The notes below the pieces were generated by a model. It searched no databases, was not told the origin of the DNA, and worked only from the letters and a program-made list of their open reading frames with translations. A stretch of 64,000 nt of DNA from Cellvibrio sp. KY-YJ-3 (GTDB lineage Bacteria; Pseudomonadota; Gammaproteobacteria; Pseudomonadales; Cellvibrionaceae): the NCBI RefSeq assembly GCF_008806955.1, contig NZ_CP031727.1, positions 4,292,001-4,356,000 on the forward strand, given 5' to 3'. The position numbers and the translations under genes were made by a program. Shown here piece by piece: positions 38,993 to 46,796 of this stretch. Position 1 is the first letter of the stretch. Each line of letters begins with the position of its first letter.

Positions 38993-39889
38993 ATGCAAAA
39001 AATACTACCCTTTTTATGGATGCTAACATTCAGTATTGCAACACCCGCATTTGCCAAAGACACCAACAGCCGGATTGTAGAAGGTGGCGGGACAGGAAAA
39101 TTTCCTGCAATTATGAAAAGCGAGGACTCACTCCAAACGCACACTATTTTCCGCCCGCAGGATATCCAGCATTTCAGCGGTAAAAAAACCTTACCTATTG
39201 TTGTCTGGGGTAACGGCGCCTGTTTTGACTCGCCGTTTGAACACGTCAATTTTTTAAATGAAATCGCCTCGCAGGGTTTTATGGTTATCGCTATAGGAAC
39301 AATGCCCAGAGCATCTGGTGAACAAAATAAAGAGAGATCAACCTCTGCCAAACTCACCGCCGCTATAGACTGGGCATTTGCACAAAACACCAATAAAAAC
39401 AGCGTTTACTTCAAGAAATTGAACACCAACAAAATTGCCCTTGCCGGTATGTCCTGCGGTGGATTACAAGCACTGGAAGTGGCAGACGACCCGCGCATTA
39501 CTACATTGATAGTCGCCAACAGCGGTATTTTTATCGAACCACTGCGCGGCAATGCCATGCCGATGATGCCGCAACTGGACAAAACCCAACTGAAAAAAAT
39601 TCACACACCAACCCTCTATTTGCTGGGCGGCCCATCTGACATAGCCTATAAAAATGGCATGGATGATGTGAAAAAAATTAATCATGTACCGGTATTTGTC
39701 GCTAACCTGAACGTAGGTCACGGCGGCACCTATGCACAAGCGTTTGGCGGTGAATATGGCAAGGTCGCCACGGCGTGGCTTAACTGGCAATTAAAAGGCG
39801 ATAAAAATTCCAGCAAGCTTTTTAAAGGAAAAACCCCAAAATTATCAACATGGAAAGGCTGGGTTGTTGACAAAAAAAATATGAAATAA
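38993..39889 (+). CDS. secreted alpha/beta hydrolase
   Basis: A 298-residue protein with a clear signal peptide (MQKILPFLWMLTFSIATPAFA, residues 1-21, cleavage after AFA). The fold is alpha/beta hydrolase: an LPIVVWGNGACFD oxyanion strand, the nucleophile serine in AGMSCGGLQALE at about residue 152, an acid candidate in LGGPSDIAY, and the histidine in NVGHGGTYA. The GxSCGG elbow and GHGG histidine resemble the dienelactone-hydrolase/PET-hydrolase-like secreted esterases and some fungal-type cell-wall esterases, so an ester substrate is likely but unidentified. The gene stands alone, with a FadR-type regulator gene upstream. Confidence 0.82.
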   Translation: MQKILPFLWMLTFSIATPAFAKDTNSRIVEGGGTGKFPAIMKSEDSLQTHTIFRPQDIQHFSGKKTLPIVVWGNGACFDSPFEHVNFLNEIASQGFMVIAIGTMPRASGEQNKERSTSAKLTAAIDWAFAQNTNKNSVYFKKLNTNKIALAGMSCGGLQALEVADDPRITTLIVANSGIFIEPLRGNAMPMMPQLDKTQLKKIHTPTLYLLGGPSDIAYKNGMDDVKKINHVPVFVANLNVGHGGTYAQAFGGEYGKVATAWLNWQLKGDKNSSKLFKGKTPKLSTWKGWVVDKKNMK

Positions 39890-39905
39890 AAAATAAAATA
39901 ACCCA

Positions 39906-39931
39906 AAGAAGCAGAGTAAAAACTCTGCTTC
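39906..39931 (+). terminator. terminator after the secreted hydrolase gene
   Basis: AGAAGCAGAGT-AAAA-ACTCTGCTTCT forms an 11-bp stem between convergent genes. The T run after it is short. Confidence 0.7.
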
Positions 39932-39947
39932 TATTTGCACGGAAATA

Positions 39948-40268
39948 CTAGATATTTCGCTTGGAAAGTTTTCCTAATTCACTATCCAGCAGGCTGACCA
40001 TTTTTTGGGAAGCACCAGCGACTGCTTGTTCAATAGTCCCAGCCTCACCTGTTACTGCGGCTGGCTCGCGCCCTGCTAATCGCGCCTCAAGCAAACAACG
40101 TTTGTCTTTCCGGCCTGATTTAGCACCGTTTTCATCGCTTAAATGCACTTCCACGCGTGTGAGCTGGGCAGAAAAGCGCCCCAAATTTTTAGAAAGTATG
40201 CCTTCAATCTGCCGAGCCAAACCTTCTTTGCCTGGAATGTTTTTATCCGTATTCACCTGAATTTGCAT
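39948..40268 (-). CDS. HPF/RaiA-like ribosome-associated protein
   Basis: About 106 residues from the ATG at 40268, which sits six bases after a GGAGGT site. A TTG four codons upstream is an artefact of that site. The sequence begins with the beta strand MQIQVNTDKNI, continues with SRVEVHLSDENG-like segments and ends with a helix rich in Lys, in line with the HPF/YfiA (sigma-54 modulation/S30EA) fold that binds the 30S subunit. It lacks a long C-terminal dimerisation domain. The middle Lys/Arg patch (GAKSGRKDKRC) would contact rRNA. It lies just outside the cassette array. Confidence 0.8.
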   Translation of the reverse strand: MQIQVNTDKNIPGKEGLARQIEGILSKNLGRFSAQLTRVEVHLSDENGAKSGRKDKRCLLEARLAGREPAAVTGEAGTIEQAVAGASQKMVSLLDSELGKLSKRNI

Positions 40269-40413
40269 ATCTACCTCCAATCAAGTCATCTTCATTAAGG
40301 TGCTGCATTTTTTATGACTGATAATTAGCGGTGGGGTTCAGATGATTAGGTTAATAATTGGAAAGCTGTGTAAAGGCTGCCATAGATACTAAATAAGGAC
40401 ACACCGGTAATTA

Positions 40414-40872
40414 TTAGGCGACTATGGCTAAAGTAAATTTTAATCTGGGCAGCATTCTTTTTTGAGGTTCACTGTATATTTCCCCCACTTTAAATGCCCC
40501 TTTTTTTAAATAGAAACCTTCAGCGTCTGGATCAGATGTTATATAAAACTCAGTGATATCCAGCGTTTTACACTCTGAAAGAATTTGTTCAAATACTAGA
40601 TTCCCATAGCCCTTGCCAATGGCTTTTGGCAATAGCCAAAAATGATCAAGCTCATCACTATCGCCTTTCACTATGGCGAAGAATCCAATCACATCTTTAT
40701 CTTTTAAAATTAGTTTGACTGTATTGCGAGAAATATACTTTTCTTCAAACCTTAAATTAGATCTCCATTCTTCAAGCTGCTCTTGAGAATAACCCCAATA
40801 GCCCTTCGATGTAATTAAGGTATCTCGAAGCAGATCGGTATCTTTTACTTCGGCATCTATAAAGTTAAGCAC
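40414..40872 (-). CDS. GNAT-family N-acetyltransferase (cassette gene)
   Basis: A 152-residue protein starting with GTG behind AGGTG. It shows the GNAT order: an N-terminal helix region, the beta strand VIGFFAIVKGD, the acetyl-CoA pyrophosphate loop near LPKAIGKGYGNLVFEQIL (a Q/RxxGxG/A-type motif), and the terminal FYLKKGAFKVGE strand-helix. It is cytoplasmic and the substrate is unknown. As the last gene of the cassette array its downstream side has only a degenerate GCCTAATAA near the stop and no clear attC. Antibiotic or toxin acetylation is common for cassette GNATs but is not shown here. Confidence 0.85.
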   Translation of the reverse strand: MLNFIDAEVKDTDLLRDTLITSKGYWGYSQEQLEEWRSNLRFEEKYISRNTVKLILKDKDVIGFFAIVKGDSDELDHFWLLPKAIGKGYGNLVFEQILSECKTLDITEFYITSDPDAEGFYLKKGAFKVGEIYSEPQKRMLPRLKFTLAIVA

Positions 40873-40889
40873 TTATTTACACCTGACGT

Positions 40890-40998
40890 TGGATTAAACC
40901 GCAGTTTTTAAGCAAAAAACTCATTTCCATTTTTAGAATGACCATATATTAAAGAAATTATGAGCGCTCCTTTACAGTTTTGCTTAGAGGAAACTGCG
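40890..40998 (-). repeat. degenerate attC-like palindrome
   Basis: CGCAGTTTTTAAGCAAAA near 40900 pairs imperfectly with TTTTGCTTAGAGGAAACTGCG near 40980, spanning the gap between the HhH and acetyltransferase cassettes. It overlaps the last codons of the HhH gene. A clean GTTAGGC-type core is missing, so it may be an inactivated attC. Confidence 0.5.
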
Positions 40999-41220
40999 TG
41001 CTGCATTAATTGCCGAACTAATAGCATTTTTTGCTTGCGGGCTATTTTTCCAGCAAGTTGACCCGGTAATATTTGCGCCATGCTCCAAAATATTATTTAT
41101 GTCAGCGCTAGCCAATTGAGATAGCGTTACAAATCCCATTTGCTCTAAGCGCTCTACAACTTTTGGCCCTACACCTTTAACGCTTAGCAATACTGCTTTT
41201 TCAGATTCAGAAAATGGCAC
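40984..41220 (-). CDS. helix-hairpin-helix protein (cassette gene)
   Basis: A 78-residue protein starting with GTG, with AAGGAA 13 bases upstream. The LSVKGVGPKVVERLEQMGF segment is a helix-hairpin-helix of the type that touches the DNA backbone, followed by a second helical hairpin (LSQLASADINNILEHG). It resembles the small Cdd1/pathogenicity-locus and TfoX C-terminal group. It is probably a stand-alone nucleic-acid-binding or adaptor protein. Being short, cytoplasmic and without partners is typical of cassette cargo. Confidence 0.75.
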   Translation of the reverse strand: MPFSESEKAVLLSVKGVGPKVVERLEQMGFVTLSQLASADINNILEHGANITGSTCWKNSPQAKNAISSAINAARSFL

Positions 41221-41237
41221 AGTTTTTATTCCTTGTA

Positions 41238-41861
41238 TTAGTTAACGCCGCAATCACGCGCTTGTCGCGTGCATTGCTTGTTAGCACTAACCAGCCAAAT
41301 ATCCGGCAGATTGTCTGCAACCTCACGATACGTCTTCTTGGATAAAAGAACGTCCAAAACGGGCTTTATAGGCTCTGCCCATATCTCCGGTAGATCAGCT
41401 TCTCCATCTGAGACTATCGGGAATGCCAAATACTCAACCGGAGGACGGAATTCAGCCGCAACACCGGCCTTGTTTCCCCTGGCATCAATTCGATACCAGC
41501 CATGCATTTCAAGATATACAGCATTCAGGCCATGCAGACAAAACGGCGGCTTATCATTGCTGATGGTCAGCCGCTGATAACATAAGCCCGCCGGAATGCC
41601 GTTCGCACGCAAAAGTGCCGCAAGCAAATGGCTCTTCGCATAGCAGTAGCCCGTTCCGTACTTCAGAACATCGGAAGCCTTACACGTTACAGGATCACAC
41701 TCATAATCCCAGCTATGCTTAATTTGGTCTCGAACAAAGACAAAACATTTATCTGCAATTTGCTCAAGGCTCTCCGTGCCGTCAGCGAGCGACTTCGCCT
41801 TAGCCAGCACCTCTGGCTCTTTCCAATCTATATATTTCGTTGATTCTAGATATTGATGCAC
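41238..41861 (-). CDS. transglutaminase-like cysteine protein (cassette gene)
   Basis: A 207-residue protein starting with GTG after TAGGAAATCG. The Cys-His-Asp triad of transglutaminase-like proteins is visible: Cys in KYGTGYCYAKSHLL at about residue 93, His in FCLHGLNAVYL at about 130, and Asp in YRIDARGNK at about 146. It is cytoplasmic and probably a peptidase-like or crosslinking enzyme with unknown substrate. The last 14 residues (from NKQCTRQARDC to the end) are read entirely from the adjacent attC, and the stop codon lies beyond it. The natural stop was probably lost, or the cassette evolved with this tail. Confidence 0.83.
   Translation of the reverse strand: MHQYLESTKYIDWKEPEVLAKAKSLADGTESLEQIADKCFVFVRDQIKHSWDYECDPVTCKASDVLKYGTGYCYAKSHLLAALLRANGIPAGLCYQRLTISNDKPPFCLHGLNAVYLEMHGWYRIDARGNKAGVAAEFRPPVEYLAFPIVSDGEADLPEIWAEPIKPVLDVLLSKKTYREVADNLPDIWLVSANKQCTRQARDCGVN
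41240..41288 (-). repeat. attC site, short type
   Basis: On the minus strand it starts GCTAACAAGCAATGCACGCG, has the loop ACAAG, and ends CGCGTGATTGCGGCGTTAAC. The stem pairs nearly throughout. Length is about 49 bp, near the minimum for a 59-base element. It is also translated as the tail of the transglutaminase-like gene. Confidence 0.75.
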
Positions 41862-41880
41862 GTATTCGATTTCCTATTAC

Positions 41881-41932
41881 GGCTAACGTTGCGTTTCAGG
41901 TATTGATTTTTTACCACAGTCGCTTGTTATGG
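41881..41932 (-). repeat. attC site, short type
   Basis: Minus-strand ends are CCATAACAAGCG and CGCAACGTTAGCC, giving an approximately 52-bp element with paired core boxes and a partly paired centre. The stop codon TAA of the membrane-protein cassette lies inside the first core box. Confidence 0.72.
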
Positions 41933-42328
41933 TTTTCTATTTAATGAAGAGCCAATAAAAATAATTGTGGCTATGGTTGCGGTATTTCCGAACATTGATG
42001 CTGCATAAGTAATTACAACTGTTAGAGCGTCAAAGTTAATAATGCTATTAAAATGAATTTTAAGCGTTGTAGATGTGACTGCAGTTATGAGGCCTGCACC
42101 TATTAAATACCGCCATAATTTATGATTTTTAAAAACAATATATTCAATAAGCGGCACTTCAATTTTGCCGCGAAATTTGTAGCCTATGTACAACAATGGA
42201 GCAGCCAATATGAGAGCGGTAGAAATCTTTAGCAAATCATGATCCATTGTTAAATACGGAAGTAGAAAGACAATTAAGATAGCTAAAGCACTTAATGCCG
42301 CCCCGTGAATAATATCTTTTAGAAACAT
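41927..42328 (-). CDS. four-helix membrane protein (cassette gene)
   Basis: A 133-residue polytopic protein with hydrophobic stretches at about residues 8-26, 32-50, 72-90 and 105-127. The short connecting loops contain few charges. I do not recognise a family. The stop codon falls in the attC core box, as in other cassettes. The ribosome-binding site is weak (GGTAAAAAT). Small hydrophobic proteins of unknown function are common integron cargo. Confidence 0.7.
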   Translation of the reverse strand: MFLKDIIHGAALSALAILIVFLLPYLTMDHDLLKISTALILAAPLLYIGYKFRGKIEVPLIEYIVFKNHKLWRYLIGAGLITAVTSTTLKIHFNSIINFDALTVVITYAASMFGNTATIATIIFIGSSLNRKP

Positions 42329-42334
42329 ATTTTT

Positions 42335-42467
42335 ACCATAGCGCCGTGCTCAACGGCAGTTTGTAAGTCGTAGTTTTGTGGGTGACTTTTGCGCAGCAAA
42401 ACCACAAAGCTGCGACTTATAAACTGTCCAGTGCACGCAGTGCGCGGGTTGCTACGCTTTGTTATAT
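42335..42467 (-). repeat. attC site, long type, copy A
   Basis: About 133 bp. The minus-strand start is TATAACAAAGCG and the far end is GGCGCTATGG, where a T-to-C change disturbs the expected GTTATGG. The long stem includes AAGTCGCAGCTTTGTGGTTTT against its complement, with GCTGCGCAAAAG at the tip. It is very similar to the site at 42917-43051. Confidence 0.85.
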
Positions 42468-42898
42468 TTTGACTCAGCTATAGCTTTTATTTTTTGATTG
42501 TGAAGGCTATACCTATGCTGGTAAGAAATAATTAGTTTACGTTTAGCCAAACCACTAAAAGCACCACAAAATGTTTCTTCTTGTATTAATTTGCAGCGGG
42601 ATTCGGATATTTCAGATAAGGTAAACTTTCTTATGCCGCTAAGCAAACCTCCAATGATTGGAAGTGTCCCAGTCCATTCTAGATGCCTACGCTCTACAAT
42701 TTTTACTTTATTTAGATTTATTCTTAACGGGAGACCAGACATTTGGGTTTTAAGTAATACTGGGACCCCATTTTTCATGCGAACCTCGACACCACTTTTA
42801 TGCCAGTCACTCCATTTTGAGAAACTTGAAATAATATTCCATACAGTATCGGCACTTGCCTCGATTTCTGTTTCGACTCTGACATCAGAACTGTTCAT
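42452..42898 (-). CDS. SRPBCC-fold protein (cassette gene)
   Basis: A 148-residue protein with GGAAATTGGTGCC before the ATG. The SRPBCC/polyketide-cyclase-like pattern is clear: VETEIEASADTVWNIISSFSKWSDWHKSG at the start (only key parts repeated here: EASADTVW and FSKWSDW), the strand RRHLEWTGTLP in the middle, and a long C-terminal helix. Such domains bind hydrophobic ligands in a deep pocket. It is cytoplasmic and the ligand is unknown. The final four codons and the stop are read from the attC core TATAACAAAGCG. Confidence 0.83.
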   Translation of the reverse strand: MNSSDVRVETEIEASADTVWNIISSFSKWSDWHKSGVEVRMKNGVPVLLKTQMSGLPLRINLNKVKIVERRHLEWTGTLPIIGGLLSGIRKFTLSEISESRCKLIQEETFCGAFSGLAKRKLIISYQHRYSLHNQKIKAIAESKYNKA

Positions 42899-42916
42899 GG
42901 CACCAATTTCCGGAAA

Positions 42917-43051
42917 ATATAACGCCGAGTTCAGCGGCAGTTTTTAAGTTGTGGTTTTGTGGATTACTTTTGCGCAGCAAAACCACAAAACTGCGACTTA
43001 AATTCTGTCCAGTGGAGCGAAGCGGAACGGTGTTTGACCACTTTGTTAGGC
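42917..43051 (-). repeat. attC site, long type, copy B
   Basis: About 135 bp. On the minus strand it starts with the canonical GCCTAAC box and ends GGCGTTATAT. It folds as a long hairpin with AAGTCGCAGTTTTGTGGTTTT paired to its complement. It shares most of its sequence with the 42335-42467 site, including the GCTGCGCAAAAG apex. Confidence 0.87.
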
Positions 43052-43056
43052 TCTAT

Positions 43057-43554
43057 TTATTTTGACTGAAGAAGTTTCGTTTTTTCTTGTTCAAATTCAA
43101 CTTCTGATAGAATTCCACGCCTTCTAAGATCGTCCAGTTTAAGCAAGTCATTGTAAGTGTCAGACTTCGTTTCAGGTTTTTCTTCACCTTTTACCGATAT
43201 TTTAATATTTTGTGCAACTGCAATATTTTCATTTGCATCTGTAATGTCCGGTCTCTCAATTGCTGGGGCTCCGGGTTTTAATGCGCGAAATATTAAATCT
43301 GCACTCGGAGGATTCCTACCTAGCTGCCCTTCACGTGCTTTAAACGAAACTGGAACCATAACCAGCCCTTTCGATGCGCAAAAATCATTTGCTTTCTGAT
43401 AAACGATTTCTCGTACACCGGCGGTTGCAAAACCTGCCCCACTCGCTGAAACCATATAAGTATCTGGCCCAGTTGGAATAACATTAGAGGAAGTACATCC
43501 ACTCACCTGTAAAATTGAAACACATATAAATAGCAGATTTTGAAGGACTTTCAT
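43057..43554 (-). CDS. SHOCT-domain lipoprotein (cassette gene)
   Basis: About 165 residues from the ATG at 43554. The frame is open to 43641, but that extension is the translated attC. A lipoprotein signal (VLQNLLFICVSILQVSGC, lipobox VSGC) leads to a beta-rich middle region (YMVSASGAGFATAGVREIVYQKANDFC). The C-terminal SHOCT module (LLKLDDLRRRGILSEVEFEQEK) covers about the last 35 residues. SHOCT is a short oligomerisation-type domain found on many unrelated proteins. It would sit in the periplasmic face of the envelope. The function is unknown. Confidence 0.8.
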   Translation of the reverse strand: MKVLQNLLFICVSILQVSGCTSSNVIPTGPDTYMVSASGAGFATAGVREIVYQKANDFCASKGLVMVPVSFKAREGQLGRNPPSADLIFRALKPGAPAIERPDITDANENIAVAQNIKISVKGEEKPETKSDTYNDLLKLDDLRRRGILSEVEFEQEKTKLLQSK

Positions 43555-43569
43555 ATTTTCGATCTCATA

Positions 43570-43682
43570 GCCTAACGTTGCGCTCACCTGCGGATTGTAA
43601 GTAGCGCGTTGCGATAAACTTAGCGTAGCGATATTGCACAAGCGCTACTTACAATGCGTCAGGTGCAATGCATTGTTATAGG
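43570..43682 (-). repeat. attC site with the best-conserved core boxes
   Basis: About 113 bp. The minus-strand start is CCTATAACAATGC and the end is CGCAACGTTAGGC, an exact GTTRRRY crossover box. The arms CACCTGACGCATTGTAAGTAGCGC and its near-complement pair over about 24 bp with two to three bulges. The central loop is GC-poor. Confidence 0.9.
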
Positions 43683-43731
43683 TTGCTATTTTTTCTCCAT
43701 TCTTAAATGGAGAAAAATGTACATGCTGCGC

Positions 43732-44046
43732 TTATGATTTTACCGTTTTACCTGCAAGAGATGAATGCTCTGCAAGCTCGGCATTTATGAAAGCAGCAAT
43801 CATTGCACGATAAACGGCTTCAGTGACATCGGGATTTGCTGCTGATTCAACTGCAAGAGCACGTACTTTTGAAATTACTTGCTCGACTCTCTGGGGCGCT
43901 TTAACGTCTTCGGTTGTTTTTTTGAAGCGAGCGGCTTGCATAACAAAGCCGCCACGCTGAGCGATAAGGCTAACAATTTTTTGATCGATAGCATCGATAT
44001 TTGAACGAACTTCCTCAAGGGAACTGCAGGTTACGATATTGTTCAT
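43732..44046 (-). CDS. chorismate-mutase-like protein, AroQ fold (cassette gene)
   Basis: A 104-residue all-helical protein with AAGGAGTTAAAA before its ATG. The pattern EVRSNIDAIDQKIVSLIAQRGGFVMQAARFK at the start (key residues R in VRSNID, D in IDQKI, and R in AQRGG), then APQRVEQVISKVR, is that of type II chorismate mutases and isochorismate-pyruvate lyases (PchB-like). These convert chorismate to prephenate, or isochorismate to salicylate plus pyruvate. No salicylate, siderophore or aromatic-amino-acid gene is nearby, so the role as a cassette is open. Confidence 0.82.
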   Translation of the reverse strand: MNNIVTCSSLEEVRSNIDAIDQKIVSLIAQRGGFVMQAARFKKTTEDVKAPQRVEQVISKVRALAVESAANPDVTEAVYRAMIAAFINAELAEHSSLAGKTVKS

Positions 44047-44064
44047 TTTTAACTCCTTGTTTGT

Positions 44065-44200
44065 GCCTATAACGTTAAGCGCAGGGGCGCGTTGTAAGTA
44101 GTGATTTTATGGAAGACTTTTGCGAAGCAAAACCATAAAAGCGCTACTTACAATGCGTCCAGCACACGAAGTGTGCGAGCCTGGCGCTTCTTGTTATGGC
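44065..44200 (-). repeat. attC site, first of the array on the upstream side
   Basis: About 136 bp. On the minus strand it starts GCCATAACAAGAAGCGCC and ends CGCTTAACGTTATAGGC. The stem pairs GCATTGTAAGTAGCGCTTTTATGGTTTTG with its partner, with the apex GCTTCGCAAAAG. An attC here implies a preceding cassette at about 44200-44460, although no convincing gene is found there. Confidence 0.85.
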
Positions 44201-44577
44201 AGCGACGGTTTGCACTTTCAGAAAGCCACGTTTCTACAAAAACCAACCGAAGCTGCCAATTAATATTACCGATGCACAATTTACACCGATTTTCTTTCTT
44301 GCACCCCAAAATGCGAAGCGCGTTGCCACACACTTTCTATTAGCACCGGAACGACACTGCGCACTTTGAACATTGCGGAAACGCCAAAAGGTGTTTGCTT
44401 GCGATGAGCTTTCCTTGTGTACGTTCAAAAACAGTTCGCACGCTATAACAGTTTATTAAACGGCTCAAGCCGTATATCACCCAGCCGCATATCTTTTTAT
44501 GGCGGGTACCTTTTACTCAAAAAGATACTGCTGATTCAATCACTTGGCGAGCTGCTTGTATATATCAATTATTAAAA

Positions 44578-44608
44578 AACCGGCGCGAGTATGGATACTG
44601 CGCCGGTT
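44578..44608 (-). terminator. hairpin with minus-strand T tract
   Basis: AACCGGCGC and GCGCCGGTT pair across a 13-base loop. On the minus strand TTTTTTAAT follows. It lies 212 bases past the end of the GH43 operon. Confidence 0.6.
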
Positions 44609-44777
44609 ATTGCTTTATGCGATATTTTTTACTACAGATAACCTACTGTTTTTAAAAGCATTAATCTTGTGGGCAGATAAACAAGAAGGTGATATGCGGC
44701 ACGAGCAGATTATCAGGATTGGTGCAGCTAATTAAAACGGGGGGCAGGATACATGCACTCGCGGGGTGATCGAAAAT

Positions 44778-44805
44778 GGTGGATGCCGTTTGTGCGGCAC
44801 CCACC
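44778..44805 (-). terminator. hairpin just after the GH43 operon
   Basis: On the minus strand GGTGGGTGCCG and CGGCATCCACC pair with one mismatch and are followed by ATTTTCG, 15 bases after the last stop of the operon. Confidence 0.65.
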
Positions 44806-44819
44806 CTATGCAGGAAATA

Positions 44820-46796
44820 TTATTGTACGGGTTTAATTTGGAAGCGCTGTCCGTTGCTGTTTAGCCATTGGGCTTGGGCGAAGTTGGTGAAGTCTTCCAC
44901 GCCGCCGTGAGCTAAATCGATGACCAGTGTACTTTTACGGTTGGCGAGTTTTACGGTGCCGTCAGCTAAAAACTCTACTTGCCATTGGGTGTAATCCTCT
45001 CCGCAATTTTCCAGCTCGATATTAGTACCGGGCACGATAGACTTTTTTGCGACCGCAATACATTGTTGTGCATTGCTATTAGATTGCTCGGCACTCGGCT
45101 GAATGTAGAAGTAACCTTCATCGGCCGCTGCAAATTTCCAACGTTGGTTCGATTTGTTTAGCCACTCTTGCTGCGCAATATTTTTAACGGCTGTATTTTC
45201 CACGACGGTAATTGCTTTACCGCTTTGAATACTGGTGATGGCATTTTCACCTTGTGGTTGTAATGCCCATTGGGCACAAGCAGATTTTGGCTCGATAAAT
45301 TGCGGAATATCCTCAACTGATTTTTGCACTTCTTTTGGCGCGGGCTCCTTGCAATCAGCAAAGCGTAACTCTTCCTGGGTTTGTGCATTTACCAGTGCGA
45401 CCCAACCTTTAATATAAGGTTTGATTTGCCATTGCTGGCAAAGTTGGTTGTGCCAAGGGGCACTGCTCAACCCTGCATCGGTAATCGCGCACTGCTCGCC
45501 ACCGGCGGTGAGGAATAATCCGCTTGGTGTTACCAATCGATAATTGCCGTTGGTGGTGTAATCCAAATTCCAAGTCGCGCTGGCATTATTGCTCGCGGTA
45601 TCTGCGCAGCTCGCGGCAGAAATTTTTCCGCTATTATCGGCAACCACACAGGTGTTATCCGCTTTGCTTACCAAGGATATTTGAGTGCCTTGCACTTTAG
45701 TGACGAGCGGGCCGTTTTCACCAGAGGGAGATGCTACAGGCACACCGGCAGCGACCGGCTCACCAAAGTTTGGGGTGCCATCTTCATTCCAGGTAAATTT
45801 TTGTGCGCGCACTGAGCGAGTGCTGGTGCAACCTTCCAATTCGCTGGCGTTACCGTGGTAAATAATCCAGTCCTCGGTGCCATCGGGCGATTTAAAGAAA
45901 CCGTTGTGCCCGGGGCCAAACACACCGTTGGCTTTGCTAAATACCGGCTTATCAAATTTATGCCAAGACTCTACTTTTAACGGGTCATCGCCCACTAATT
46001 CCACCAAGCCCAATTTGTAGTCCGGGGTATTACAAAAACTCGCGGAATACACCATGTAGGTTTTGCCATTGCGCTTTAACATTTCCGGGCCTTCATTGAC
46101 TTTCATGCCAGAAAATTCCCATTCGTATTCGGGGCGAATAATTTTTACTCGCTCACCTTCTACCGTCCAGGGGTTGCTCATTTTGGAAATCCAAATGGTT
46201 TGTTCATCGCCCACCCACTGGGACCAGAGCAAATACAACTGGCCCTTGTGCTCAAAATAATTGCCGTCGATATTCCAAATATCGGGCATGGGCGAACCTT
46301 TGTAGGTATAAGGGCCGAGCGGGTCATCGCCGTGGCTTTCAATCACACTCAAATGCTGGCGATCAAAATTTTCGGCAATGCCCGAGGTGTACATAACGTA
46401 CCAGCGCGGCCCTTTGGGTGTATTCAGGCGATGAAATTCAAACGCCCAAAAATTACAGCAACGGCCCAAATCACTCTCTGACCAGATATTAATCGGCGTT
46501 GCTGTAGCAAGGCCAGCGAGTGTGGGCGATTTGCGCATCACCAACTGCGATGTCCAGGTGGTGGTGGTTAAATAATAATTGCCTTCAAAATATTCCAACC
46601 AAGGGTCGGCACCGTTGGGGAAAATCGGGTTGATAAAGCTATTGACCATTTGCTGGGCGGTGGGGCCATTAGCCGGTTGACTTGCAACCGACGTTTGCGC
46701 TCCGGGTGCCGCGCTTTTTTCAGCGGGCACCTCTGCCTCTTTACCGCAGCCGATTAATACCGCGGGCAATAACAACAGGGATAATAATTTTTTCAT
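44820..46796 (-). CDS. GH43 lipoprotein with C-terminal ricin-type trefoil region
   Basis: A 658-residue protein with a GAGAGAGG site before ATG. A lipoprotein signal (LLLLPAVLIGC) anchors it, most likely to the outer membrane. The five-bladed GH43 domain covers about residues 50-350. The predicted base Asp is in FPNGADPWLEY, the pKa-modulating Asp in WNIDGNYFEHKG and the acid Glu in GMKVNEGPEML. Residues about 365-658 hold ricin-B-like repeats (QW-type endings such as LCQQWQIKP and AQWLNSNGQRFQIKP) that would bind carbohydrate. Likely activity is exo-acting alpha-L-arabinofuranosidase on arabinan or arabinoxylan side chains. It is the third gene of the operon starting at 50267. Confidence 0.87.
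   Translation of the reverse strand: MKKLLSLLLLPAVLIGCGKEAEVPAEKSAAPGAQTSVASQPANGPTAQQMVNSFINPIFPNGADPWLEYFEGNYYLTTTTWTSQLVMRKSPTLAGLATATPINIWSESDLGRCCNFWAFEFHRLNTPKGPRWYVMYTSGIAENFDRQHLSVIESHGDDPLGPYTYKGSPMPDIWNIDGNYFEHKGQLYLLWSQWVGDEQTIWISKMSNPWTVEGERVKIIRPEYEWEFSGMKVNEGPEMLKRNGKTYMVYSASFCNTPDYKLGLVELVGDDPLKVESWHKFDKPVFSKANGVFGPGHNGFFKSPDGTEDWIIYHGNASELEGCTSTRSVRAQKFTWNEDGTPNFGEPVAAGVPVASPSGENGPLVTKVQGTQISLVSKADNTCVVADNSGKISAASCADTASNNASATWNLDYTTNGNYRLVTPSGLFLTAGGEQCAITDAGLSSAPWHNQLCQQWQIKPYIKGWVALVNAQTQEELRFADCKEPAPKEVQKSVEDIPQFIEPKSACAQWALQPQGENAITSIQSGKAITVVENTAVKNIAQQEWLNKSNQRWKFAAADEGYFYIQPSAEQSNSNAQQCIAVAKKSIVPGTNIELENCGEDYTQWQVEFLADGTVKLANRKSTLVIDLAHGGVEDFTNFAQAQWLNSNGQRFQIKPVQ

Follow-up and report, generated by a model that had tools for sequence, protein, structure and literature searches.

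The stretch 40414-44200 (minus strand) of the window, by which we mean the whole 64,000-nucleotide piece of DNA analysed, is a real integron cassette array without an integrase, i.e., a CALIN. We consider it quite likely that this array is a satellite integron, led by an attI and lacking an integrase gene of its own, that was filled in trans by a resident IntI and later stranded.

Structure and gene content of the array

The sequence-only reading had described seven consecutive short genes on one strand, separated by palindromes, as a CALIN in a chromosome, and this description was borne out: the ORF listing of the window gave seven minus-strand ORFs spanning 40414-44046, attC sites A to F were found where the palindromes had been placed, and the array carries real attC sites and no intI in a one-contig chromosome. 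We distinguished eight cassettes, seven of them with a recognisable gene. Matches above the Pfam family cut-off were obtained for five of the seven ORFs, while the lipoprotein fell slightly below it and the membrane-like protein had none. The features are given below from the head of the array onward, with fold z denoting folding energy relative to 100 dinucleotide shuffles on the plus strand (the sites' bottom strand) and R1 denoting a covariance model trained solely on window sites A-D.

44494..44726, minus strand: leader, with homology to the stretch from attI to intI in alpha-type integrons (local alignment; intI itself missing)
44446..44493, minus strand: attI core, alpha type (by homology and position; cassettes toward lower coordinates)
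about 44074-44448, minus strand: first cassette, ORF-poor (added to the array as first read)
44065..44200, minus strand: attC site A, closing the ORF-poor first cassette (fold z -9.9; R1 training site)
43732..44046, minus strand: cassette gene, chorismate mutase family protein (PF01817; ORF and Pfam)
43570..43682, minus strand: attC site B (fold z -5.2; R1 training site)
43057..43554, minus strand: cassette gene, lipoprotein-like protein with SHOCT-like end (ORF; slightly below Pfam cut-off)
42917..43051, minus strand: attC site C (fold z -3.3; R1 training site; cassette homology ends inside)
42452..42898, minus strand: cassette gene, SRPBCC protein (PF10604; ORF and Pfam)
42335..42467, minus strand: attC site D, core triplet degenerate as read from sequence (fold z -5.3; R1 training site)
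41927..42328, minus strand: cassette gene, membrane-like protein (ORF; no Pfam match)
41881..41933, minus strand: attC site E, short (boxes read from sequence; fold z -0.4, not significant)
41238..41861, minus strand: cassette gene, transglutaminase-like protein (PF01841; ORF and Pfam)
41239..41286, minus strand: attC site F, short (fold z -2.7)
40984..41220, minus strand: cassette gene, helix-hairpin-helix protein (PF14520; ORF; barely above Pfam cut-off)
40880..41025 (about), minus strand: attC site G, degenerate (fold z -2.0; added to the sites first read)
40414..40872, minus strand: last cassette gene, GNAT acetyltransferase (ORF and Pfam; no attC of its own recognised after it)

The array thus has the at least two tandem attC sites that define a CALIN (the four R1 training sites plus E, F and G) and no integron-integrase nearby in the window; of the parts of a complete (sedentary) integron, it has the attI at its head, by homology and position, and lacks intI. 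Two more genes of the inserted stretch, one esterase-like and one S30AE-like, were not counted as cassettes. The host is a plant-sugar-degrading bacterium of the genus Cellvibrio.

Folding of the bottom strand, the check proposed with the sequence-only reading, gave z values of -9.9 to -2.0 for sites A, B, C, D, F and G and a weak value for E, which we nevertheless kept as an attC because its 25-nt arm is also present at other array loci at about 90-96% identity. An eighth candidate after the GNAT gene (40345-40422) was rejected, since it folded no better than shuffles (z = 0.3). The covariance-model check was made with R1, our own model, instead of that of IntegronFinder, and it found dozens of same-strand tandem matches in the integron loci of relatives, adjoining intI genes, which argues that the window palindromes are more than chance. 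R1 did not recover window sites E, F and G, and an Rfam scan of the window gave no match at the gathering threshold. A home-made scan for R-boxes and arms was dropped for the covariance model because it performed no better than its null, with no strict matches in the array and relaxed matches that included A and F as well as far-off places.

The attI site and leader at the array head

The window sequence 44446-44493 shares 90% identity over 48-49 nt with what separates intI from the first cassette in the sister genome G020, and the same motif also precedes intI in G018. Beyond it, the leader (44509-44726) aligned locally with that of G020 at a score of 95 (200 shuffles: mean 32, maximum 55) and with that of G018 at a score of 93 (shuffle maximum 62), and the aligned sequence extends toward the intI start. 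Judged by homology and position, an attI heads the window array, and its leader is related to the leaders of complete integrons in sister species, so that the earlier statement that no attI lies on either side did not hold (44446-44726). A search of 44430-44830 for sigma-70-like promoters gave none, where shuffles gave a mean of 1.1; the leader may drive expression of the first cassettes. Searches of plasmids with the window attI-leader, and of plasmids and phages with the beta attI unit, returned no match.

Integrase genes and attC loci in the source genome

As the sequence-only reading had held, there was no intI: tblastn with IntI gave no match in the window, and a TIGR02249 profile search of the whole genome returned no protein above the integron-integrase cut-off. 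An IntI remnant of 40 residues lies before waaA at 2.23 Mb; this decayed IntI is of alpha type, the same type as the window attI, and G020 has a complete integron at the matching waaA place. As far as these sequences tell, the source genome's own IntI is decayed at the waaA locus. The genome-wide look for attC and intI suggested with that reading yielded eight attC loci and IntI only as the remnant; the count is at least eight, the window array included, since the whole-genome model searches scored 150 candidates in each genome, out of about 800-1540, and may have missed attC sites. An attI-like site heads all eight of these loci, each site belonging to one of three types.

attI-like sites across the genus

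A census of 21 Cellvibrio genomes gave 75 attI-like sites, 12 beside an intact intI, 3 beside a decayed intI (L102, L158, L143) and 60 with no intI nearby, meaning no tblastn match at E <= 1e-4 with at least about 1.4 kb covered on the outer side. Rows matching only the repeat tail (about query positions 203-285) and one 36-nt row (G030:C400) were left out. The alpha and beta IntI queries also detect gamma-type IntI (L036, L037), and L038 and L042 were entered as intI-bearing on the basis of a separate integrase search. An attC array on the correct side and strand is headed by 46 of the 60 intI-less sites; the other 14 had no R1 attC within 2.5 kb, a model that misses short attC types. The attC positions used were best-strand rows, at many loci only those nearest attI, and among these rows no opposite-strand attC lay on the outer side of an attI; two same-strand matches on the outer side, one at L167 and one at L074, a locus with several attI sites, were counted as further arrays. 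Across the genus, attI-led arrays without intI therefore exceed complete integrons in number.

Several of the intI-less units are close copies of one another. Most pairs of beta units without intI in G000 were 88-93% identical over 260-285 bp, and two such epsilon units in G027 were 94.6% identical over 299 bp. The beta units continue into a repeat, and at the corresponding place G014 and G019 have this repeat but no attI.

Cassette sharing and locus history

The whole SRPBCC cassette recurs in the distant congener G017 at 95% identity over 595 bp, and its homology with G017 and G020 stops at the site C crossover base (42923-42924); no relative of the SRPBCC protein was confirmed in the genome contig database. 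Homology around the GNAT gene with seven other genomes stops at 40875-40910, near the site G core in six of the seven. Shared array positions in relatives carry different cassette genes. The genes flanking the window array are neighbours without an array in G019 (0.15 kb apart) and G027 (0.73 kb), the only genomes in which the array-free site was seen; in G014 the same genes are separated by 6.4 kb of different content in which R1 finds no attC, and in G020 the place is rearranged, the array flanks lying at 2.34 and 4.65 Mb. A second array of the source genome, at 2.028 Mb, is a clean insert relative to all four relatives compared.

Origin of the array

We propose that attI-led arrays without intI (satellite integrons) stand at many chromosomal sites, where a resident IntI acting in trans would load cassettes into them (attI x attC recombination) and reshuffle their content (attC x attC recombination). 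Decay of IntI in the source genome would then leave the arrays stranded and their attC sites drifting, a drift that we read from the broken core triplets of sites D and G. By homology, the window array fits the putative satellite form, being an intI-less array headed by an attI of an intI-linked type, and filling in trans by IntI is probable, the different cassette genes at shared positions being an indirect sign of it.

The strongest competitor is plain loss of the integrase, in which every array was once a complete integron, each intI was deleted independently, the attI and leader were retained because they drive cassette expression, and the ends coincide by selection and not by dispersal. 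We regard this as a real possibility, though one we lean against. PMC11389934 names loss or translocation of the integrase as the paradigm now current for CALINs, three decayed intI genes do adjoin attI sites, the source genome lost its intI at waaA, and a leader extending toward the intI start is what removal of intI alone would leave. Yet 60 of the 63 attI-like sites without an intact intI show no intI remnant by tblastn, near-identical intI-less copies occur within one genome (the G000 beta pairs and the G027 epsilon pair), and the beta units run on into a repeat that stands without attI in G014 and G019. Chromosomal rearrangement that severed the array from a complete integron appears improbable. 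The distant flanks in G020 indicate that the window place has been a breakpoint, but the flanking genes are still adjacent in G019 and G027, so that the array was added to the ancestral arrangement, and the array at 2.028 Mb is cleanly inserted; rearrangement was dropped as the origin after the G019 and G027 comparison.

Equally improbable, in our estimate, is that an IntI located elsewhere put the cassettes into attG sites, which are non-classical targets, as described by Loot et al. (2024) according to other papers, with the attI-like heads incidental. This reading was dropped when each of the eight attC loci proved to have an attI-like head. Together with the 46 of 60 intI-less sites that head arrays, these heads are of types that also occur beside intact intI, and attG insertion, which calls for a non-attI head, does not predict leader homology to intI loci; the window head is homologous to an intI-linked attI and its leader. 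That the palindromes are terminators or repeats between unrelated genes and not attC sites has a negligible probability: the generic R-box and arm scan gave no distinction between the sites and chance, and folding is weak for E, G and the eighth candidate, but R1 gives dozens of matches beside intI genes, cassette homology stops at a crossover base, and an attI stands at the array head.

The satellite reading can be extended. The chances seem to us evenly balanced that leader-attI units are non-autonomous platforms that spread without intI and are loaded by a resident IntI, the window array being one stranded unit; one type of unit would, on this extension, spread beside a dispersed repeat. 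The similar intI-less copies within one genome and the repeat that occurs without attI bear on such spread, and selection for a conserved leader may also account for them. Sites without intI outnumber those with an intact intI by 60 to 12, about five to one. Such platforms, if real, would relate to integrons as miniature elements do to transposons.

Relation to known systems

Like the CALINs of Cury et al. (as cited in PMC9024848 and PMC8618304), the window array has tandem attC sites, cassettes and no adjacent intI, but, unlike the CALINs of the cited account, it has at its head an attI accompanied by an intI leader. The origins given for CALINs in PMC8618304 are off-target insertion, loss of intI and rearrangement. 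With sedentary chromosomal integrons the array shares its chromosomal place and related attC sites, and its attI is of the same type as that of the intI-bearing integron at waaA of G020; it differs in having no integrase gene, in being short and in being one of eight in the chromosome. Insertion at attG, as relayed by papers citing Loot et al. (2024), likewise has IntI putting cassettes away from its own integron, but into a non-classical site, whereas the window attI is homologous to intI-linked attI. The delta-attI-type gene cassettes of mobile integrons (PMC12901181) resemble the array in carrying attI-derived sequence away from its usual place; as presented there, these sites lie inside cassettes, whereas the window has a leader-attI unit in front of a separate array in the chromosome. 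MITEs and other hitcher elements, among which PMC11389934 counts CALINs, are similarly non-autonomous and dependent on a helper enzyme; they differ in that mobility of the attI unit itself is hypothetical here.

Neither attI-led CALINs nor chromosomes with many attI copies turned up as described, nor any paper that joins Cellvibrio with integrons and attC sites, in a literature search that most subscription journals lay outside. According to PMC9024848, IntegronFinder 2 detects no attI outside class 1, so that an attI at the head of a CALIN would go unseen, and attI-led CALINs could be widespread and stay unnoticed. One large survey reported there counted about as many CALINs as complete integrons (2961 versus 2760). 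If many CALINs keep an attI, they would not be debris but additional docking sites, all open to service in trans by a single integrase, and the number of chromosomal places able to collect cassettes would change. Cellvibrio is a direct test ground, with species that have IntI, species that have lost it, and shared loci holding different cassettes.

Cassette array and its attC sites

In the single-contig source genome (G000; 4,489,528 bp; window, G000:C1:4292001-4356000), the array (40414-44200) is on the minus strand and consists of eight cassette-sized units running down from ~44449 and separated by attC candidates A-G.

Cassette units of the window array
Unit 1, from ~44449 down, minus strand: short, without convincing gene
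Unit 2, minus strand: chorismate-mutase-family protein
Unit 3, minus strand: SHOCT-like lipoprotein
Unit 4, minus strand: SRPBCC protein
Unit 5, minus strand: membrane-like protein without known family
Unit 6, minus strand: transglutaminase-like protein
Unit 7, minus strand: helix-hairpin-helix protein
Unit 8, minus strand: GNAT acetyltransferase

The sole PADLOC match among the cassette proteins was weak (Csx19, E = 0.018, to the chorismate-mutase-family protein). Bottom-strand folding, proposed as a check in the sequence-only reading, was borne out: sites A-D folded far better than shuffled sequences, and all four folded better as the + strand, which is their bottom strand, than as the minus strand. 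A covariance model (R1) trained on sites A-D alone was run on the window and on 11 stretches around relatives' intI genes, where it gave dozens of high-scoring tandem one-strand matches (e.g., in relatives G020, G019, G033, and G027) and none in two of the 11 stretches (G022 and the short G018 contig). The covariance-model check thus returned dozens of attC matches beside relatives' intI rather than zero, and this transfer is non-circular evidence for the window attC sites. In G017, a congener in which proteins encoded by the flanking genes mostly share 40-70% identity with those of G000, a stretch of 595 bp matched the SRPBCC cassette with its attC (42329-42923) at 95% identity; the match broke off at 42923, which is the crossover base of attC C, and an attC follows the SRPBCC gene in G017 too. 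Homology of the GNAT cassette ended at 40875-40910 in comparison with seven other genomes, in six of them ~12 bases or less from the degenerate core of site G. The R1 matches at relatives' intI loci and the ending of cassette homology at the crossover base support the original view that the seven unrelated short genes and their palindromes form a real attC array.

attI and leader of the window array

The same reading had placed no attI on either side of the array, a claim that did not hold. The first cassette is headed by 48 nt (44446-44493) that were 90% identical to the DNA separating intI from the first cassette in G020, and this attI motif also precedes intI in G018. The adjoining stretch, 44509-44726, aligned to the G020 leader (the attI-to-intI stretch) with a score of 95 (200 shuffles: mean 32, maximum 55) and to the G018 leader with a score of 93 (shuffle maximum 62); scores against DNA downstream of the GH43 gene were 28 in G020 (not significant) and 51 in G019 (1 of 200 shuffles as high). 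A terminator-like hairpin at 44778-44805, beyond the leader homology, presumably belongs to the GH43 gene. No sigma-70-like promoter was found in the window leader; a putative, unproven role of this leader would be to drive cassette expression.

The window array is by definition a CALIN, a cassette array without integrase, and putatively functions as an integron that lacks an engine of its own. New here are the attI and leader that head the CALIN and its membership in a numerous genus-wide set; no account of such a set of attI-led, intI-less arrays was found in the literature searched.

Integrase loss

As had been claimed, the array lacks intI: no IntI similarity remained in the window, and no protein in the whole G000 genome passed the integron-integrase cut-off. 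By comparison, a strong match was present in 117 of the 144 genomes of the family and in 16 of the genus's 21. The suggested genome-wide search recovered only a frameshifted C-terminal IntI fragment at ~G000:C1:2,229,670-2,229,850, immediately before a gene that we take from its protein to be waaA; 40 residues of the fragment were 90% identical to G020 IntI. A complete integron lies between the same two genes in G020, the shared flanks being ~11 kb apart there versus 0.9 kb in G000; therefore, the G000 lineage once had an integron at waaA and lost it. The waaA locus holds an alpha-type intI in G020 (G020:C1:308962), the remnant in G000 (G000:C1:2229671), and intI with an epsilon-type attI in G014 (G014:C8:1389).

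Array loci in the chromosome and across the genus

The proposed search of the rest of the genome for attC proved productive: with 150 of 1348 candidates scored, R1 sites occurred at at least eight places in the G000 chromosome, including one place with a lone site, and all eight loci found were headed by an attI-like site.

attI types heading G000 attC loci, and relatives in which each type lies beside intact intI
alpha: window array (4.335 Mb), 2.028 Mb; beside intI in G020, G018
beta: 1.357, 1.476, 1.902, 3.853 Mb; beside intI in G019, G033
epsilon: 1.783, 2.463 Mb; beside intI in G014, G023, G027, G028

One more alpha attI site lies near the 3.85-Mb locus. Two near-identical two-ORF elements, presumably IS3-like (~G000:C1:1475041-1476310, L069 6042-7310; ~1901332-1902600, L071 8333-9600), both end a few bases outside an attC R' box at equal offset, and the element possibly targets attC surroundings. 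Filamentous-prophage-like genes (Zot-like by eye) and a tyrosine recombinase (G000:C1:2454171-2460760; L073 1172-7760) adjoin the 2.463-Mb array; in G014, G020, and G027, a distance of 2-4 kb separates the flanking genes.

Across the genus, 75 attI-like sites were compiled, 58 retained from a DNA search and 17 from a pattern search (whose reversed-pattern control matched in 0 of 21 genomes), and these were distributed over 19 of 21 genomes. intI was intact at 12, decayed at 3, and absent nearby at 60, of which 57 had a cassette side at least 1.2 kb long. An R1 attC in the right orientation lay within 2.5 kb on the cassette side of 46 of the 60 intI-less sites (median 526 bp), with none in that range at the other 14; the figures were 10 of 12 for intact and 2 of 3 for decayed intI. 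No opposite-strand attC occurred on the outer side among the matches entered. An array led by a gamma-type attI in G015 (G015:C1:960350-963800, L087) lies ~0.3 kb from the GH43-led gene cluster bordering the window array, at the cluster's opposite end, and includes an attC site with 92% identity to site D.

Origin of the intI-less units

Beta-type satellites (attI-led arrays without intI) matched intI-bearing beta leaders over positions 1 to ~188 and then ran into a repeat that also stands alone in the genomes. Two epsilon satellites in G027 were 94.6% identical over 299 bp; against the intI leader they were 68-69% identical over ~298 bp, diverging before the expected intI start. Judged from these sequences, the satellites could be copies of an intI-less unit, a reading that we consider evenly balanced. 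That leaders were instead retained by selection after separate intI losses is judged slightly less likely. At 3.853 Mb, G014 has the repeat without attI and G027 has a different attI-like core adjoining it; at 1.357 Mb, a portion of the repeat is present in G019, with no attI. Deletion of attI may account for the G014 and G019 states. Most beta-type attI units carry at their outer end a 32-mer dispersed in Cellvibrio genomes, GTAGGTTGCTGGTGAGTTTACGAACC..., presumably a REP-like repeat, which also occurs alone and at times as close inverted pairs.

Insertion and cassette turnover

The GntR-type and GH43 genes that flank the window array are separated by 6.1 kb in G000, a stretch that includes esterase-like and S30AE-like genes outside the array, versus 0.15 kb in G019 and 0.73 kb in G027; the gap is 6.4 kb with different content in G014, and the two genes are parted by rearrangement in G020. 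The two sides of 39883-44816 lie at 2.34 and 4.65 Mb in G020, and the array position therefore coincides with a rearrangement breakpoint of this sister genome. The 4.84-kb insert carrying the 2.028-Mb array was missing at the same point in four of four relatives compared, which retain gaps of 13-203 bp there. This insert also holds, outward of its attI, a two-gene pair (G000:C1:2029130-2030675; L072 9131-10676) that we take to resemble an AbiE-type toxin-antitoxin system.

Turnover was assessed by five tblastx comparisons at two array positions common to several species: the AhpC locus of G000, G014, G027, and G020 (the G020 copy having attC without a clear attI) and the 1.357-Mb locus of G000 and G020. 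Matches occurred at attC sites, and no common cassette gene was found in the five comparisons save one 32-residue segment of 34% identity; cassette content thus differs at integrase-less positions, which would point to IntI acting in trans.
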